A stretch of DNA of 58,504 bases from Gammaproteobacteria bacterium (GTDB lineage: Bacteria; Pseudomonadota; Gammaproteobacteria; Steroidobacterales; Woeseiaceae), in assembly GCA_018699395.1 (NCBI GenBank), contig JABIQN010000097.1:1-58504 (forward strand), written 5' to 3'. The notes under the pieces are model-generated. The model searched no databases. It was not told the DNA's origin and worked only from the letters and a program-made list of their open reading frames with translations. Positions within the stretch are counted from its first letter, which is position 1; every line of letters starts with the position of its first letter. The translations under genes were made by a program, and so were the position numbers. This document shows, piece after piece, positions 3,984 to 58,504 of the stretch.

Positions 3984-5234
3984 ATGGCTAAAATCGAAGT
4001 AGAAGTTGGTAAGTCGAAAGGCGGATTCATGAAGTGGATAGACGATCGTTTCCCGTTTACGGAGACCATGCGGTATCACGTCACTGAATATTATGCCTCC
4101 AAGAACTTTAATTTCTGGTACGTGTTCGGCGTGCTGGCATTTGTCGTGCTTTTTATCCAGTTGTTTACTGGAATTTTTCTGACGATGAACTATAAACCGT
4201 CGGCAGCGGAAGCTTTCTCATCGGTTGAGTACATTATGCGCGATGTGGAATGGGGTTGGTTGATCCGCTACATGCATTCAACCGGCTCGTCATTCTTCTT
4301 TGTTGTTGTGTATCTGCATATGTTTCGCGCGATGCTCTACGGCTCCTATAAAAAGCCGCGTGAGCTCATCTGGATTATAGGGATGCTGATCTTCGTCGTG
4401 CTCATGGCAGAGGCATTTGCGGGCTACCTGCTACCTTGGGGGCAAATGTCCTACTGGGGTGCTCAGGTCATTATCTCGCTGTTCGGCTCGATACCTTGGG
4501 TAGGTGATGCGCTGGTCGAGATAATTCGTGGCGATTATTCGATATCTGATATCACGCTAAATCGCTTCTTTGCTCTACATGTGATCGCATTGCCGCTAGC
4601 ACTCATTGGTCTGATCTTTGTGCATATTGTGGCTTTGCATGAAGTCGGATCGAATAATCCGGATGGCATTGAAATCAAGAGCAATAAGGGTGCTGACGGA
4701 GTACCGTTGGACGGTGTTGCTTTCCATCCATATCACACGAGTAAGGATTTGGTCGCGATTATTATTTTTCTGATTATCTTCTTCTCTGTGGTGTTCTTTG
4801 CGCCGGATATGGGCGGTTACTTCCTAGAGCATGCCAACTTCGAACCGGCAAACCTGACTGCTACGCCTGAGCACATCGCGCCGGTCTGGTATTTCACGCC
4901 GTTCTACGCGATTTTAAGAGCGGTGCCGGATAAACTTGGGGGATTCATTCTCTTTGGCTTGTCAGTGGTGATACCTCTGTTTCTGCCCTGGCTGGATCGA
5001 GCACGCGTTAAGTCCATTCGGTATCGCGGTTGGATCTACAAGTCTGCGCTGAGTATTTTCGTTGTTACGTTCTTGGTGCTGGGCTGGCTGGGTACGATGC
5101 CGGCAGACCCTCTGTACGTGCTGGCCGCAAGAGTATTTTCTGTGATCTACTTCGCGTTCTTCATACTAATGCCATATTACACGACAATTGATAAGACGAA
5201 GCCCGTTCCAGATAGGGTTGTCTACCATGGTTAA
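3984..5234 (+). CDS. petB: Ubiquinol-cytochrome c reductase cytochrome b subunit
   Basis: A 416-residue polytopic membrane protein holding the two b hemes and both quinone sites. The heme histidines are H98, H112, H199 and H214, and PWGQMSYWGA (151-160) is the conserved cd-helix region. The Qo motif reads PVWY (300-303) rather than PEWY. From memory, this variant is known in beta- and gammaproteobacteria. The N-terminus carries KG, two residues, then MKWIDDRFPF (16-25), a segment nearly copied at the end of bamD. It abuts petA and overlaps petC by eight bases. Confidence 0.97.
   Translation: MAKIEVEVGKSKGGFMKWIDDRFPFTETMRYHVTEYYASKNFNFWYVFGVLAFVVLFIQLFTGIFLTMNYKPSAAEAFSSVEYIMRDVEWGWLIRYMHSTGSSFFFVVVYLHMFRAMLYGSYKKPRELIWIIGMLIFVVLMAEAFAGYLLPWGQMSYWGAQVIISLFGSIPWVGDALVEIIRGDYSISDITLNRFFALHVIALPLALIGLIFVHIVALHEVGSNNPDGIEIKSNKGADGVPLDGVAFHPYHTSKDLVAIIIFLIIFFSVVFFAPDMGGYFLEHANFEPANLTATPEHIAPVWYFTPFYAILRAVPDKLGGFILFGLSVVIPLFLPWLDRARVKSIRYRGWIYKSALSIFVVTFLVLGWLGTMPADPLYVLAARVFSVIYFAFFILMPYYTTIDKTKPVPDRVVYHG
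4015..4059 (+). repeat. 45-bp segment shared with the 3' end of bamD (copy 1)
   Basis: It matches 42909-42953 on the minus strand at 40 of 45 positions, including 20 identical bases (4035-4054), in the same reading frame. Here it encodes residues 11-26 of PetB. Confidence 0.8.
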
Positions 5235-37952: not shown

Positions 37953-38447
37953 CTAATTTCGACAGATCGCGGGAAGATATCTTGTCAGAACCGTAGTTGG
38001 TACATAAACAGTACCAGGCATTATAACGGACCCACCGCCCGGTTGACTGGCTGCGCCACAACGCCACACGACCCCGCCAGAAGGAGTTAAGTATGGTGTG
38101 AATGACACTACATCGCCGAAAACATCGGCATGCGCACGGTTACCCATCATCACGTCGACCCGGCCATCGTTAACTTCAATTTGCGACACATATAAGCCAC
38201 GCGAGTCTGTTGCGATGACTGACATGCCGGCAGCCGCTCTGTCTATGGGAGGTGCACCGTCCTGGATGTACGCGTCGACAACCGGCGATTTCACCCCGGC
38301 ACCCATATTGATAGCCTCTGCTATCTGCGCTCGAATGGTGTAGGTCTGATATGCGGAAACAGCCAGAGACGCGAGAATCCCTATAATTGCCACAATGATC
38401 ATCAATTCAATGAGTGTAAAGCCATTATTTTGTCTTATTTTAAGCAT
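37953..38447 (-). CDS. pilA: Type IV major-pilin-like protein (distal copy)
   Basis: 164 residues. A short basic leader MLKIRQNNG is followed by FTLIELMIIVAIIGILAS, the classic type IVa prepilin site, with G9-F10 as the cut and Glu five residues on. A long N-terminal helix and a beta domain follow. Cysteines in VVWRCG and LPAIC near the end can form the usual C-terminal disulfide loop. It differs much from the upstream pilin after residue 40. Its own terminator follows. Whether it is a major or minor pilin cannot be told. Confidence 0.9.
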   Translation of the reverse strand: MLKIRQNNGFTLIELMIIVAIIGILASLAVSAYQTYTIRAQIAEAINMGAGVKSPVVDAYIQDGAPPIDRAAAGMSVIATDSRGLYVSQIEVNDGRVDVMMGNRAHADVFGDVVSFTPYLTPSGGVVWRCGAASQPGGGSVIMPGTVYVPTTVLTRYLPAICRN

Positions 38448-38622: not shown

Positions 38623-39054
38623 TCACGGGCGGCATATGGCTGGAAGGTGCTTGCTAGCTATAGAGGCACTGGCACAAACCCAGGAAATGGAACTCTGATT
38701 ATCAGTTGCCTGCATTGTAACTGTATTGCCGCTGAGGTACGTAGCGTTGGCATCACCACCGTACGTTATGGTTATAAGGCCGCCATTACTAACTGTTACA
38801 CCCGTAGTGTACTTACCAGCGATTGAGGTAGACAAAGACAGCCCTGCAGTAACGTTATCAGTAGGCCAGCTGCCAGAATCCATGCGAAACTCAGCTGTAG
38901 CGGCCTTCGCAGCGCCAGAAAGCGTCAAGCCTTCAGCAACCTGCGCGCGGATCGTGTAGTCCTGGTAAGCAGGAATAACGATCGCAGCCATAATACCAAT
39001 GATCGCTACAACGATTATCAGTTCGATGAGTGTAAAGCCTTGTTGTTTTTTCAT
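38623..39054 (-). CDS. pilA: Type IV pilin (proximal copy)
   Basis: 143 residues from the ATG at 39054. The leader MKKQQG is followed by [18 protein letters not shown] and [14 protein letters not shown], a standard type IVa pilin start. The C-terminal disulfide pair is WVCA and LPAIC. GGAGAAAACGAG before this ATG fixes the start; the longer frame to 39204 would bury the prepilin leader. It is divergent from sucC. The closest match between the pilins is their first 40 residues and the LPAIC end. Confidence 0.93.
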
Positions 39055-39192
39055 CTCGTTTTCTCCATGAATTTGAGCCTGATTCATTCGCGAATTGTAG
39101 ACTGAATATGGACATGGGTCCCGCAAACCTACAAAATACGCCGTCTTTTTCGCCGCTATTGCGAAATCCTCTGTGTCAACATAAGAAATCCA

Positions 39193-40353
39193 ATGAATCT
39201 TCACGAATATCAGTCAAAAATCTTGTTCAGGGAATACGGTATAGCTGTCCCGCGAGGCATTCCCGCTGATTCTGCGGATGGAGCCGTCAAGGCGGCCGAG
39301 GAACTCGGTGGCAAATTCTGGGTCGTAAAAGCTCAAGCCCATACTGGCGGTCGTGGTAAAGCGGGCGGCGTCAAACTCGCTCGTACGTTCGATGAGGTTC
39401 GCGAATACGCGGATGAAATGCTGGGTATGGCACTGATTACTTATCAGACAGGACCAGAGGGTCTGCCGGTCAACATGATTTATGTTGAAGAAGGCTCAGA
39501 GATTGATCGCGAGCTGTATCTGAGCATACTGGTTGATCGCGAGGTCAGCCGTATCTCCTTTATAGCGTCGGCTGCTGGTGGCATGGATATCGAGAAGGTG
39601 GCTGCAGAAACGCCCGAGAAGATTTTCTCAGTCGCGATCGCGCCAGATACCGGCTTGCAGGACTATCAGGTGCGTCAACTGGCCTTCGGTCTCGGACTCG
39701 AAAAGAAGCAAATACGGCAATTCGGCGATCTCATCAAGAAGCTTTATCAGTTGTATGTTGACACGGACGCCAGTTTGATCGAGGTGAATCCTCTGATCAC
39801 CAATACGGCGGGCGATGTCATTGCGCTTGATGGAAAAATCAACGTCGACGCTAGCGCTCTATTTCGACAAAAAGAAATCGCTAAACTTCGAGATCCGAGT
39901 CAGGAGGATGAAGTGGAGCGAGAAGCAGCGGAACATGATCTGAATTATGTCTCGCTCGACGGCAATATTGCCTGCATGGTTAATGGCGCTGGACTCGCGA
40001 TGGCGACAATGGATCTTATCAAGTTGCATGGCGGTGATCCGGCAAACTTCTTGGACGTCGGCGGCGGCGCAACGGCCGAACGTGTCTCAGCAGCATTCAA
40101 GCTAATCCTCTCCAACGGAAATGTCGCTGCAATTTTAGTTAATATTTTCGGTGGTATCGTGCGTTGTGACTTGATCGCAGAGGGAATTATCAGCGCGGTC
40201 AAAGAAGTCGGTGTCAGTGTTCCGGTCATTGTAAGACTGGAGGGTACAAACGTAACAAAAGGCCGCGACCTTCTGGCAAATAGCGGACTCGCTATCATTG
40301 CGGCCGATGACCTTACCGATGCAGCACTCAAGGCAGTTGCCTCGGCAGCCTGA
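39193..40353 (+). CDS. sucC: Succinyl-CoA synthetase, beta subunit
   Basis: 386 residues. With SucD it converts succinyl-CoA to succinate with ATP or GTP formation in the TCA cycle. [17 protein letters not shown] starts the ATP-grasp domain; [24 protein letters not shown] and [13 protein letters not shown] follow, and [10 protein letters not shown] is the phosphohistidine-facing loop. No ribosome site is clear before the ATG. It is not with sucAB here. Confidence 0.97.
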
Positions 40354-41263: not shown

Positions 41264-42895
41264 ATGGATCACAATGTCAAAGTCGCGTTGGCTCAGATTA
41301 ACCTGACGGTCGGTGATATAGCTGGTAATACCGAAAAAATAATTTCCTATTCTGCACAAGCTCGCGATGATCTTGATGCTGATCTGGTCATTTTTCCGGA
41401 GCTCAGCATTTGCGGTTATCCGCCGGAAGATCTCCTATTTCATGCCAGCCTTCGTTGCTTGGTTGAAAATGCGATGACGCAGATTAGCGAGAGCATCTCT
41501 GGCATCGCAGTTCTAATTGGTTTCCCGGAATACAGTCAGGGCAAGATCTACAATGCCTGTGAGGTTATTCATGATGGCAAAATTCTTGCCCATTACCGCA
41601 AACAGTCGCTGCCTAATTACAGTGTTTTTGATGAGGAGCGCTATTTTACGCGCGGCAACAGTGCTTCGATCTTTACACTAAATGGTATTCGTATCGGGCT
41701 GAATATTTGTGAGGATGTTTGGAATTTCGGCCCGATGGATAGTGCTTATTCTGCTGGCGCCGAGTGCATTATCGCTATCAACGGATCGCCCTTCGAGAAA
41801 GGCAGCCAGGCAATGCGTGAGACGCAGGTAAAAAAGCGGGTAATGGATGTCCAGCTTCCTATTATTTACGTCAATATGGTCGGCGGTCAGGATGAGCTGG
41901 TATTTGATGGCGGATCGTTCGCCATGTTGGCCGATGGAGAAATGGCATTCCGTGCACCTGCATTTGAGGAAGGTCTTCATACAGTCGATTTACAAGCATC
42001 GGCGTCAGGCGTTGTATTGCAAGCTGAGATTTCCGCGGATCTGTTGGATGCCGATGCCAGCGCTTACAAAGCACTGGTTACAGGCACTCGTGACTACATT
42101 ACCAAACACGGTTTTCCGGGCATTATTCTCGGCCTATCAGGCGGGATCGATTCGGCGCTGGTTGCGAGTATTGCTTATGATGCGATCGGACCTGATCGTG
42201 TACGCGCCGTGATGATGCCTTTTCGCTATACGTCTAACATGAGTCAGGAAGATGCGGCTCTGCAGGCAGCGATGCTGGGTATTCGCTACGATGTGATTTC
42301 AATAGAGCCCATGTACGAGGCGACGATTGCGCAACTGGATCTGGTACTGGGCGAACGCGAACCCAATGTAACCGAAGAAAACATTCAAGCTCGCTGCCGA
42401 GGATTACTTTTGATGGCGATATCGAACAAGACTGGACGCATGTTGCTAACCACGGGCAACAAAAGCGAGATGGCCGTTGGATACGCGACCCTATACGGCG
42501 ATATGGCCGGTGGCTTTGCTCCTATCAAGGACTGCACTAAAACGCTGGTCTATCGTCTGGCCAGGTATCGGAATTCGCTCGGCGCGGCCATACCGGAAAG
42601 AGTCATTGCACGGGAGCCATCAGCCGAACTGCGGCCGGATCAGAAAGACAGTGATTCGTTGCCTGACTATGATGTCCTTGACTCAATCCTCGAGGCGTTT
42701 ATCGAGGAAGACCTTTCTGTCGCGGAGATTGCAGAACGTGGGTTTGAGCGGGATACAGTCGTCCGAATTTTGGAGATGGTGAAACGTAATGAATACAAGC
42801 GCCGTCAAGCGCCGCCAGGAGTCAGAATCAGTGGCCGCGCGTTCGGCCGGGATTGGCGTTACCCGATTACCTCAGGTTACAAATACCCACACTAA
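41264..42895 (+). CDS. nadE: Glutamine-dependent NAD+ synthetase
   Basis: 543 residues, two domains. The N-terminal nitrilase-type glutaminase has the E46, K113, C149 triad (FPELS, YRKQSLPNY, LNICEDVW). The C-terminal synthetase has the PP-loop GLSGGIDSALVA and TTGNKSEMAVGYATLYGD. It makes NAD from nicotinate adenine dinucleotide using glutamine nitrogen. It follows sucD by 23 bases and its stop overlaps that of bamD by four bases on the opposite strand. Confidence 0.96.
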   Translation: MDHNVKVALAQINLTVGDIAGNTEKIISYSAQARDDLDADLVIFPELSICGYPPEDLLFHASLRCLVENAMTQISESISGIAVLIGFPEYSQGKIYNACEVIHDGKILAHYRKQSLPNYSVFDEERYFTRGNSASIFTLNGIRIGLNICEDVWNFGPMDSAYSAGAECIIAINGSPFEKGSQAMRETQVKKRVMDVQLPIIYVNMVGGQDELVFDGGSFAMLADGEMAFRAPAFEEGLHTVDLQASASGVVLQAEISADLLDADASAYKALVTGTRDYITKHGFPGIILGLSGGIDSALVASIAYDAIGPDRVRAVMMPFRYTSNMSQEDAALQAAMLGIRYDVISIEPMYEATIAQLDLVLGEREPNVTEENIQARCRGLLLMAISNKTGRMLLTTGNKSEMAVGYATLYGDMAGGFAPIKDCTKTLVYRLARYRNSLGAAIPERVIAREPSAELRPDQKDSDSLPDYDVLDSILEAFIEEDLSVAEIAERGFERDTVVRILEMVKRNEYKRRQAPPGVRISGRAFGRDWRYPITSGYKYPH

Positions 42896-43746
42896 TCGCG
42901 TTTAGCTTTAAATGGGAAACGATCGTCTATCCATTTCATCAATCTACCTTTCGTCTGGCCGACTTCTACATGGCTTCCATCGCTTGGAAAGTTGGCAGCA
43001 AGAACCCGGCGCGCATCGTCTCGAAGATCATTTATCCCAAGTGCATCGTAGGCCTCGGCCATGATGTGGAGCGACTCTGCGTTTCCGGAAGCGCCATTGT
43101 ACTCCTCTAAAGCGAACTTGGCCCGATTAACCGCAGCTACATAGGCGCCATGGCGTAAGTAATAATCAGCAATGTAGTTTTCGTAAGTCGACATTCGCTC
43201 CTTGATGGCCAGTATGCGCTGTTGAGCATCCGCCGAATACTCACTGTCGGGATAACGCTCAATCAGGCGGCGAAAGGTTGAATACGCGAGATCCGTATCT
43301 CCAGGTGGCCGTTTGGTTATATCTTGTTGGAACCAGCGCTCGAAGAGTCCGGCTTCACCTTCAAAATAGGACAGGCCTTTTATGTACAAGGCGTAATCGA
43401 CGCGGTCGTGGACCGGATTTTCACGAATAAAGGTATCGGCGGCGTCTACCGCTTGCTCAAGCTGACTGCTTTGATAATAGGCATGCATGAGCTCCAGCTG
43501 AATTTGTCGTTCAACGTCACTAAACGGGAATCGAGCCTGAATGGCCTCAAAAATCGCAATACCCTTTCGATAATCCTCATTTTCTATTGCCTCTTGCGCC
43601 GTTTCGTACGCCTCGGCGATGTCATCCACTTCAGAGCGTTGTTCGTCCTTGCCTCCACAGGCCAGAAGGCTCGTTCCAAGAATAACGAGCACAAATAAGC
43701 GGGCGCGTCGAACAAATAGCGGGTTGAGTTGTAATTTTAATTGCAT
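42892..43746 (-). CDS. bamD: Outer membrane assembly lipoprotein BamD
   Basis: 284 residues. An essential part of the BAM complex inserting outer-membrane barrels. The lipobox LLAC gives C30 as the lipidated residue; the mature part is helical TPR-like with EAYETAQEAIENEDY, RFPFSDVERQIQLEL and YPDSEYSADAQQRI. The last 17 residues read KGRLMKWIDDRFPF then KAKRD, matching the start of PetB in this window; I know of no such tail in E. coli BamD. It is convergent with nadE and divergent from rluD, the classic bamD-rluD pair. Confidence 0.95.
   Translation of the reverse strand: MQLKLQLNPLFVRRARLFVLVILGTSLLACGGKDEQRSEVDDIAEAYETAQEAIENEDYRKGIAIFEAIQARFPFSDVERQIQLELMHAYYQSSQLEQAVDAADTFIRENPVHDRVDYALYIKGLSYFEGEAGLFERWFQQDITKRPPGDTDLAYSTFRRLIERYPDSEYSADAQQRILAIKERMSTYENYIADYYLRHGAYVAAVNRAKFALEEYNGASGNAESLHIMAEAYDALGINDLRDDARRVLAANFPSDGSHVEVGQTKGRLMKWIDDRFPFKAKRD
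42909..42953 (-). repeat. 45-bp segment shared with the 5' end of petB (copy 2)
   Basis: It matches 4015-4059 on the plus strand at 40 of 45 bases, with the 20 bases 42914-42933 identical. It encodes the tail of BamD in the same frame as in PetB. Most mismatches are at third codon positions. Confidence 0.8.
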
Positions 43747-58072: not shown

Positions 58073-58504
58073 TCAATTCCCCTGCTGAACCCTGTCAAAG
58101 ATCTTTGTCGAAAGTTTTTGTGCTTTGGCAATTTGGGCGGAGGTCATTTGCTCTTCTACGATTGCCCGATTACCACTCGCAGCTTCATCTCCAGAGGCTG
58201 AAGCGATATTCCACCACGCATACGCTGTTACATAATTAACAGGTACGCCTTGACCCCTGTAATGCATGACGCCAAGATTGTTTTGGGCGATTACATACCC
58301 TTTATCAGCAACTAGTTGATACCATTTTACCGCCTCTATATCGTCTTCAGGCACACCTTCGCCATTTTGATACATGATGCCAAGATTGTATTGGGCGATT
58401 GCATCCCCCTGATCAGCAGCTTCAAGCATTTCTTCAAAATCAGGGGCTTGTCCAACAGCCATAACAGGCGTCAGGAAAAAACCCAATAGGAGGCATTGCC
58501 TAAA
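58073..58504 (-). CDS. Sel1-repeat protein, exported, cut by the window end
   Basis: At least 143 residues. The frame runs open to the window edge, and the residues there (CLLLGFFLTPVMAVG) look like the hydrophobic core of a signal peptide, so the true start lies just outside. Two to three Sel1 repeats follow: EAADQGDAIAQYNLGIMYQNG, VADKGYVIAQNNLGVMHYRGQG and AYAWWNIASASGDEAA (first shown by its AIAQYNLGIMYQNG core). Sel1 proteins are interaction scaffolds; partner unknown. Confidence 0.85.
   Translation of the reverse strand, partial: FRQCLLLGFFLTPVMAVGQAPDFEEMLEAADQGDAIAQYNLGIMYQNGEGVPEDDIEAVKWYQLVADKGYVIAQNNLGVMHYRGQGVPVNYVTAYAWWNIASASGDEAASGNRAIVEEQMTSAQIAKAQKLSTKIFDRVQQGN

Follow-up and report, generated by a model that had tools for sequence, protein, structure and literature searches.

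BamD (YfiO) is a lipoprotein of outer membrane assembly and is essential in well-studied bacteria. Ectopic duplication of short segments, in which a gene fragment is fused in frame to another gene, is a known kind of event. Palindromic elements of the Rickettsia type also insert into genes. An extension of 60 residues is reported for alpha-proteobacterial BamD (PMC3359395). Here we describe a BamD that ends with a peptide resembling the start of cytochrome b. Our comparisons indicate that this tail is a real, lineage-specific ectopic duplication onto BamD, and not a recent one.

The window, i.e. the whole stretch of 58,504 nucleotides that was analysed, contains bamD on the minus strand at 42892–43746, as identified by its open reading frame and by family searches. 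The 284-residue product matches TIGR03302 over residues 16–256 with 227.3 bits against a cut-off of 81.4, and a YfiO family match also names it. The motif LLAC (Cys after LLA) at its residues 27–30 is also present in the BamDs of two related genomes, G004 and G081, and we take it to be the lipoprotein signal. The gene petB, for the 416-residue cytochrome b of the bc1 complex, was recognized by its cytochrome b domains at 3984–5234 on the plus strand, and family searches placed Rieske and cytochrome c1 genes on its flanks. It lies ~39 kb from bamD in the opposite orientation, and the distance and orientation are the same in G004. In relatives whose BamD has no such tail, such as G013 and G027, the two genes are ~48 kb apart. 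A NAD synthase gene of the nadE type (41264–42895, plus strand) is convergent with bamD and overlaps it by 4 bp at the stop codons.

The BamD of the window ends in ...VEVGQTKGRLMKWIDDRFPFKAKRD, and PetB begins with MAKIEVEVGKSKGGFMKWIDDRFPFTET. The match to TIGR03302 stops at residue 256 and leaves a 27-residue tail outside the family model. This added tail, SHVEVGQTKGRLMKWIDDRFPFKAKRD, is encoded by 27 codons at 42895–42975 on the minus strand and is lacking in 66 tail-less relatives of the genus. About 20 of its 27 residues match the PetB N-terminus. A sequence-only reading had counted 40 identical bases out of 45, with 20 in a row, between 42909–42953 (reversed) and 4015–4059, and these counts are exact. 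The real match is longer, at 68 bp rather than 45. Self-comparison of the window aligned 42909–42976 of bamD (minus strand) with 3992–4059 (plus strand), which in petB extends from the end of codon 3 into codon 26 by one base, at 82% identity (E = 1.6e-12). When the tail DNA was compared with its own 1.5-Mb genome, petB was matched over 61 bp at 85% identity (E = 6e-14), and the tail peptide matched PetB with an E value of 2e-7. A search for the motif elsewhere in this genome, with E values up to 10, returned the bamD tail and the petB match and no third copy of the DNA or the peptide.

Two other repeats of comparable size occur in the window. A pair of pilin genes on the minus strand (37953–38447 and 38623–39204) has a common stretch of 122 bp at 70% identity, as in ordinary paralogues. 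A gene for a Sel1-repeat protein has an internal repeat of 74 bp at 78% identity (58240–58421). Both were set aside as ordinary paralogy.

In a 60-base block, the tail and petB differ at 9 positions, of which 6 are third positions; 4 of the 9 mismatches change the residue (Q/K, T/S, R/G, L/F). The earlier statement that the mismatches are mostly at third positions holds here as it does in the 45-base stretch (4 of 5). Shared codon use was controlled for by resampling the tail codons with both peptides fixed (200,000 draws). The observed 51 identical bases out of 60 compare with a mean of 45 (P = 0.0035). An identical run of at least 20 bases had P = 0.019, and identity at 9 of 14 synonymous codons had P = 0.047. 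The DNA identity beyond codon use is real but modest by itself, as expected of an old copy. The main evidence for a copy is the peptide match together with its restriction to one clade. For the five codons at the end of the tail no source was found; they could be former spacer between bamD and nadE.

To see who carries the tail, a C-terminal BamD query of 90 residues (one letter off) was run against 73 genomes of the genus. The C-terminus was found in 69 genomes and in none of G008, G023, G028 and G085. Only three of the 69 carry the tail, namely the genome of the window (G000), G004 and G081. The other 66 ends were all read, and the KWIDDR motif is absent from them. All but one of these end within ~10 residues of the motif NFP or its variants (NFPNES, NFPDEG); the BamD of G080 (L143) has a longer, unrelated end. 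The PetB-like motif was likewise found in none of 20 BamDs from other families of the order.

A search with the tail only was extended to 396 genomes drawn from the order (E 0.01). It matched 92 genomes, with only the three carriers in a BamD frame of 290 codons. The remaining matches, some of them judged by frame length, were in frames about as long as petB or in short frames at the edge of a contig; nearly all of these short frames were identified as petB, leaving one of 40 codons in G009. The motif is rare in BamD, as had been supposed, with 3 of the 396 genomes of the order. A scan of 84,980 species that included the 8-residue pattern MKWIDDRF, and that sees exact matches alone, gave 112 pattern matches; 54 loci were confirmed, two sister BamDs and 52 petB starts, and the other 58 matches were not confirmed. 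The segment occurs widely among the PetBs of the genus and the family, whereas the BamD tail is limited to one clade; the direction of copying is therefore from petB to bamD, as first proposed. The three carriers have the smallest genomes among the genus genomes examined, 1.4–1.5 Mb (at 88–90% completeness) against 2.0–5.4 Mb in the others, so the tail marks a reduced-genome lineage.

To place the gain, a tree of the BamD core was built with the tail columns removed. It included 49 distinct BamDs, 43 from the genus and 6 outgroups taken from the 20 other-family BamDs. The carriers group at 100/100 within tail-less relatives, with one state change over the 49 rows. This places a single gain of the tail on the stem of the carrier clade.

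For the donor, we compared 53 distinct petB segments, 3 from the carrier clade and 50 others. The three tails best match petBs of the clade, at 52, 51 and 50 of 60 bases, and the best of the 50 others reach 49, 49 and 47, a margin of 2–3 of 60 bases. The petB of G081, which is itself changed, scores lower against the tails (47, 44 and 46 of 60). The Ile codon ATA is common to the tails and all three clade petBs and occurs in 3 of the 50 other petBs. Residue 6 of the block is Pro in 44 of the 53 petB segments and Ser (TCG) only in the petBs of the three carriers. At this residue the tail codes for Pro (CCG) in G004 and G081 and for Thr in the window. By parsimony, the donor would have been petB on the stem of the carrier clade, before its Pro-to-Ser change.

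The dS of the bamD core is 0.94 and 1.12 between G081 and the other two carriers and 0.30 between the window and G004. The copying is thus older than the divergence of G081 from G004 and the window genome. This depth of the clade, and the mismatch between Pro in the G004 and G081 tails and Ser in the petBs of the same genomes, rule out the recent copying that had been considered. Taken alone, the origin of the tail as an old ectopic copy of the petB start in bamD is in our view nearly certain.

By eye, the window shows a 4-bp overlap between the stop codons of bamD and nadE; a pattern search finds it also in G004, in G081 and in 5 of 28 tail-less relatives, and it is thus not a general feature of the genus. 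Among tail-less relatives, L062 shares this overlap with the carriers, and others have a short spacer. Compared with an L062-like relative, the net gain is 27 codons, or 81 bp, directly before the stop codon, of which ~60–68 bp are petB-derived. The marks of an ectopic duplication of the petB 5′ end are all seen here: homology at the DNA level, a donor of the same lineage (by the small margin of 2–3 of 60 bases) and an acceptor that is clean in relatives. The sequence-only reading had offered a short duplication or gene conversion. The first of these stands; the second is rejected as the origin because none of the 66 tail-less BamDs of the genus has a homologous tract.

We propose that in the ancestor of the reduced-genome lineage ~60–68 bp of the petB 5′ end were copied by ectopic duplication. 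The source is inverted and tens of kb away, and the copying may have gone through template switching or fragment capture during break repair. The copy was put into the bamD 3′ end at the stop codon. Being in frame, it gave BamD a periplasmic tail of 27 residues, consisting of a variable linker and then KWIDDR(F/L)PFKA. The sequences show the homology, its direction, the single origin on the BamD tree, the order of events and the position, whereas the mechanism of copying and the use of the tail are inferred.

Whether the tail is used was judged from its conservation. The tail had been suggested to be a targeting or interaction peptide shared by two envelope proteins. Targeting is unlikely, because BamD keeps its own lipoprotein signal and because the N-terminus of cytochrome b is on the cytoplasmic side of the inner membrane, whereas BamD is periplasmic. 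An interaction role is possible. We prefer a periplasmic contact peptide, in which a flexible linker would be followed by a short Trp/basic segment, and this segment would touch either the surface of the membrane or a further subunit of BAM. The whole explanation, an ectopic petB copy with its tail in use as a periplasmic contact, is the best one that we have, and we hold it with moderate confidence.

Several measurements bear on such a use. Of the 273 segments of 12 codons in bamD, KWIDDR(F/L)PFKA has changed least in both comparisons with G081, with 1 difference from G004 and 2 from the window. Between the window and G004 many other 12-codon segments are unchanged, and the block does not stand out. 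The reading frames of the tail are open in all three carriers. For the tail as a whole, the three comparisons give dN/dS values of 0.80, 0.40 and 0.37, and for its last 17 codons 0.41, 0.63 and 0.35, against 0.09–0.14 for the core; the tail values rest on only 9–16 synonymous sites. These figures fit a weakly to moderately constrained segment. An AlphaFold2 model, made from an alignment of three sequences, has a helix at 262–275 with pLDDT under 50 for 262–269. The hydrophobic moment of the tail helix is not above that of shuffled sequences (P = 0.33, 0.36 and 0.60), and an amphipathic helix was rejected for this reason.

With the same origin, the tail could instead be a neutral remnant of a harmless chance insertion, drifting and functionless. 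The dN/dS of 0.37–0.80, several times that of the core, points this way, as do the differences among carriers in the linker and the last residues, the structure of low confidence and the ordinary amphipathicity. However, the frames have stayed open, and KWIDDR(F/L)PFKA is nearly unchanged after a core dS of ~1 between G081 and the others and is the least changed 12-codon segment in both G081 comparisons. We regard a neutral remnant as possible but rather unlikely.

The tail might also be kept for its DNA or RNA, and not for its peptide. An imperfect inverted repeat lies within it at 42910–42936, and the predicted hairpin is stronger in G004 and G081 than in the window. In G004 and G081, the inverted repeat contains a perfect 12-bp palindrome, AGACGATCGTCT (found by eye), within a 34-bp identical stretch that is the longest identical run of bamD between these two genomes. 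Their hairpin has predicted energies of -8.1 kcal/mol on the bamD strand and -9.6 kcal/mol on the other strand. Compared with synonymous recoding, the bamD-strand hairpin has P = 0.012–0.014, and the petB copies are unremarkable (P = 0.61–0.67). Local exchange between the carriers was rejected as the cause of the 34-bp run, for neighbouring 60-base blocks are of ordinary identity.

Placed between the convergent bamD and nadE, such an inverted repeat could end transcription or guard the mRNA ends. The long identical run and the hairpins of G004 and G081 favor this, but the hairpin was noticed post hoc. In the window it is weaker (-5.5/-3.6 kcal/mol, P = 0.2) and is missing when a wider region is folded (z = -0.25 and +0.82). 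A terminator scan of 42700–43100 found one site, which is in nadE, and none in the tail; a terminator in the tail was therefore rejected. A role of the nucleic acid in place of the peptide is improbable in our estimate. Slightly less probable still is a double use by the reduced-genome lineage, in which the copied petB start would act in BamD as a contact helix in the periplasm and also, via the inverted repeat, as a boundary element between the convergent bamD and nadE. If this is true, a genome-reducing lineage turned the start of a respiratory gene, whose product belongs to the inner membrane, into a new working component of an essential machine of the outer membrane.

Gene conversion might still have acted between petB and an older, similar BamD tail, or might continue between both copies. 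The window tail has F, as in petB, where the tails of G004 and G081 have L, but this F/L difference is one base. No such tail occurs in the 66 relatives. AAA (Lys) in each of the three tails stands against AAG in each of the three clade petBs, and past the block the tails have AAA against ACG or ACA in petB. In addition, G004 and G081 keep Pro in their tails with Ser in their own petBs. Conversion is accordingly very improbable.

An assembly artefact or a chance likeness, which could be suspected as the other two carriers are metagenome-assembled genomes, has next to no probability and is taken as refuted by the independent carrier genomes, for the three are separate, the other two bamDs are 92% and 75% identical to that of the window with matching junction sequence on both sides of the tail, and the E value is 6e-14 in a 1.5-Mb genome.

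The tail is a clean case in which an unrelated gene, by a piece that can be named, has supplied a protein with a new terminus. The donor, the acceptor, the single origin and the order of events can all be read from sequence. This gain of sequence took place in an unexpected setting, a lineage whose genomes are smaller than all others examined in the genus. Since BamD is essential in well-studied bacteria, the tail makes it possible to test directly how far the BAM machine tolerates, or welcomes, a new peptide.

Compared with the BamD (YfiO) family (TIGR03302/PF13525), the window protein is alike in its core, its lipoprotein signal and its tetratricopeptide repeats, and differs in the 27-residue tail beyond the end of the family match. 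Its best solved structural relatives are BamD chains; 9pxg chain D, with 341 residues, is matched by the window BamD only to 246. BamD C-termini elsewhere in proteobacteria likewise run past the core, to variable lengths. The 20 BamD ends read from other families are not PetB-like, whereas the source gene of the carriers' tail can be named. Aromatic-basic stretches (KRWWKFW, KPWYRLW, RSWWKFWNRL, RRRFFFF) were seen by eye in 8 of these 20 ends (L146–L165), and the carriers' tail may be comparable to them. WWKFW-like tails were not seen among the genus ends read.

A report of such a BamD tail, or of a like bacterial case, was not found in the open-access literature, to which our search was confined. 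Palindromic elements of the Rickettsia type resemble the tail as short in-frame insertions with a palindromic core. They differ in that the tail has only two genomic copies, of which one is a conserved portion of petB itself, and not the several copies of a dispersed repeat; the tail is therefore not a repeat family. The carriers' BamD tail is of the same kind as an ectopic duplication that builds a chimeric protein end.
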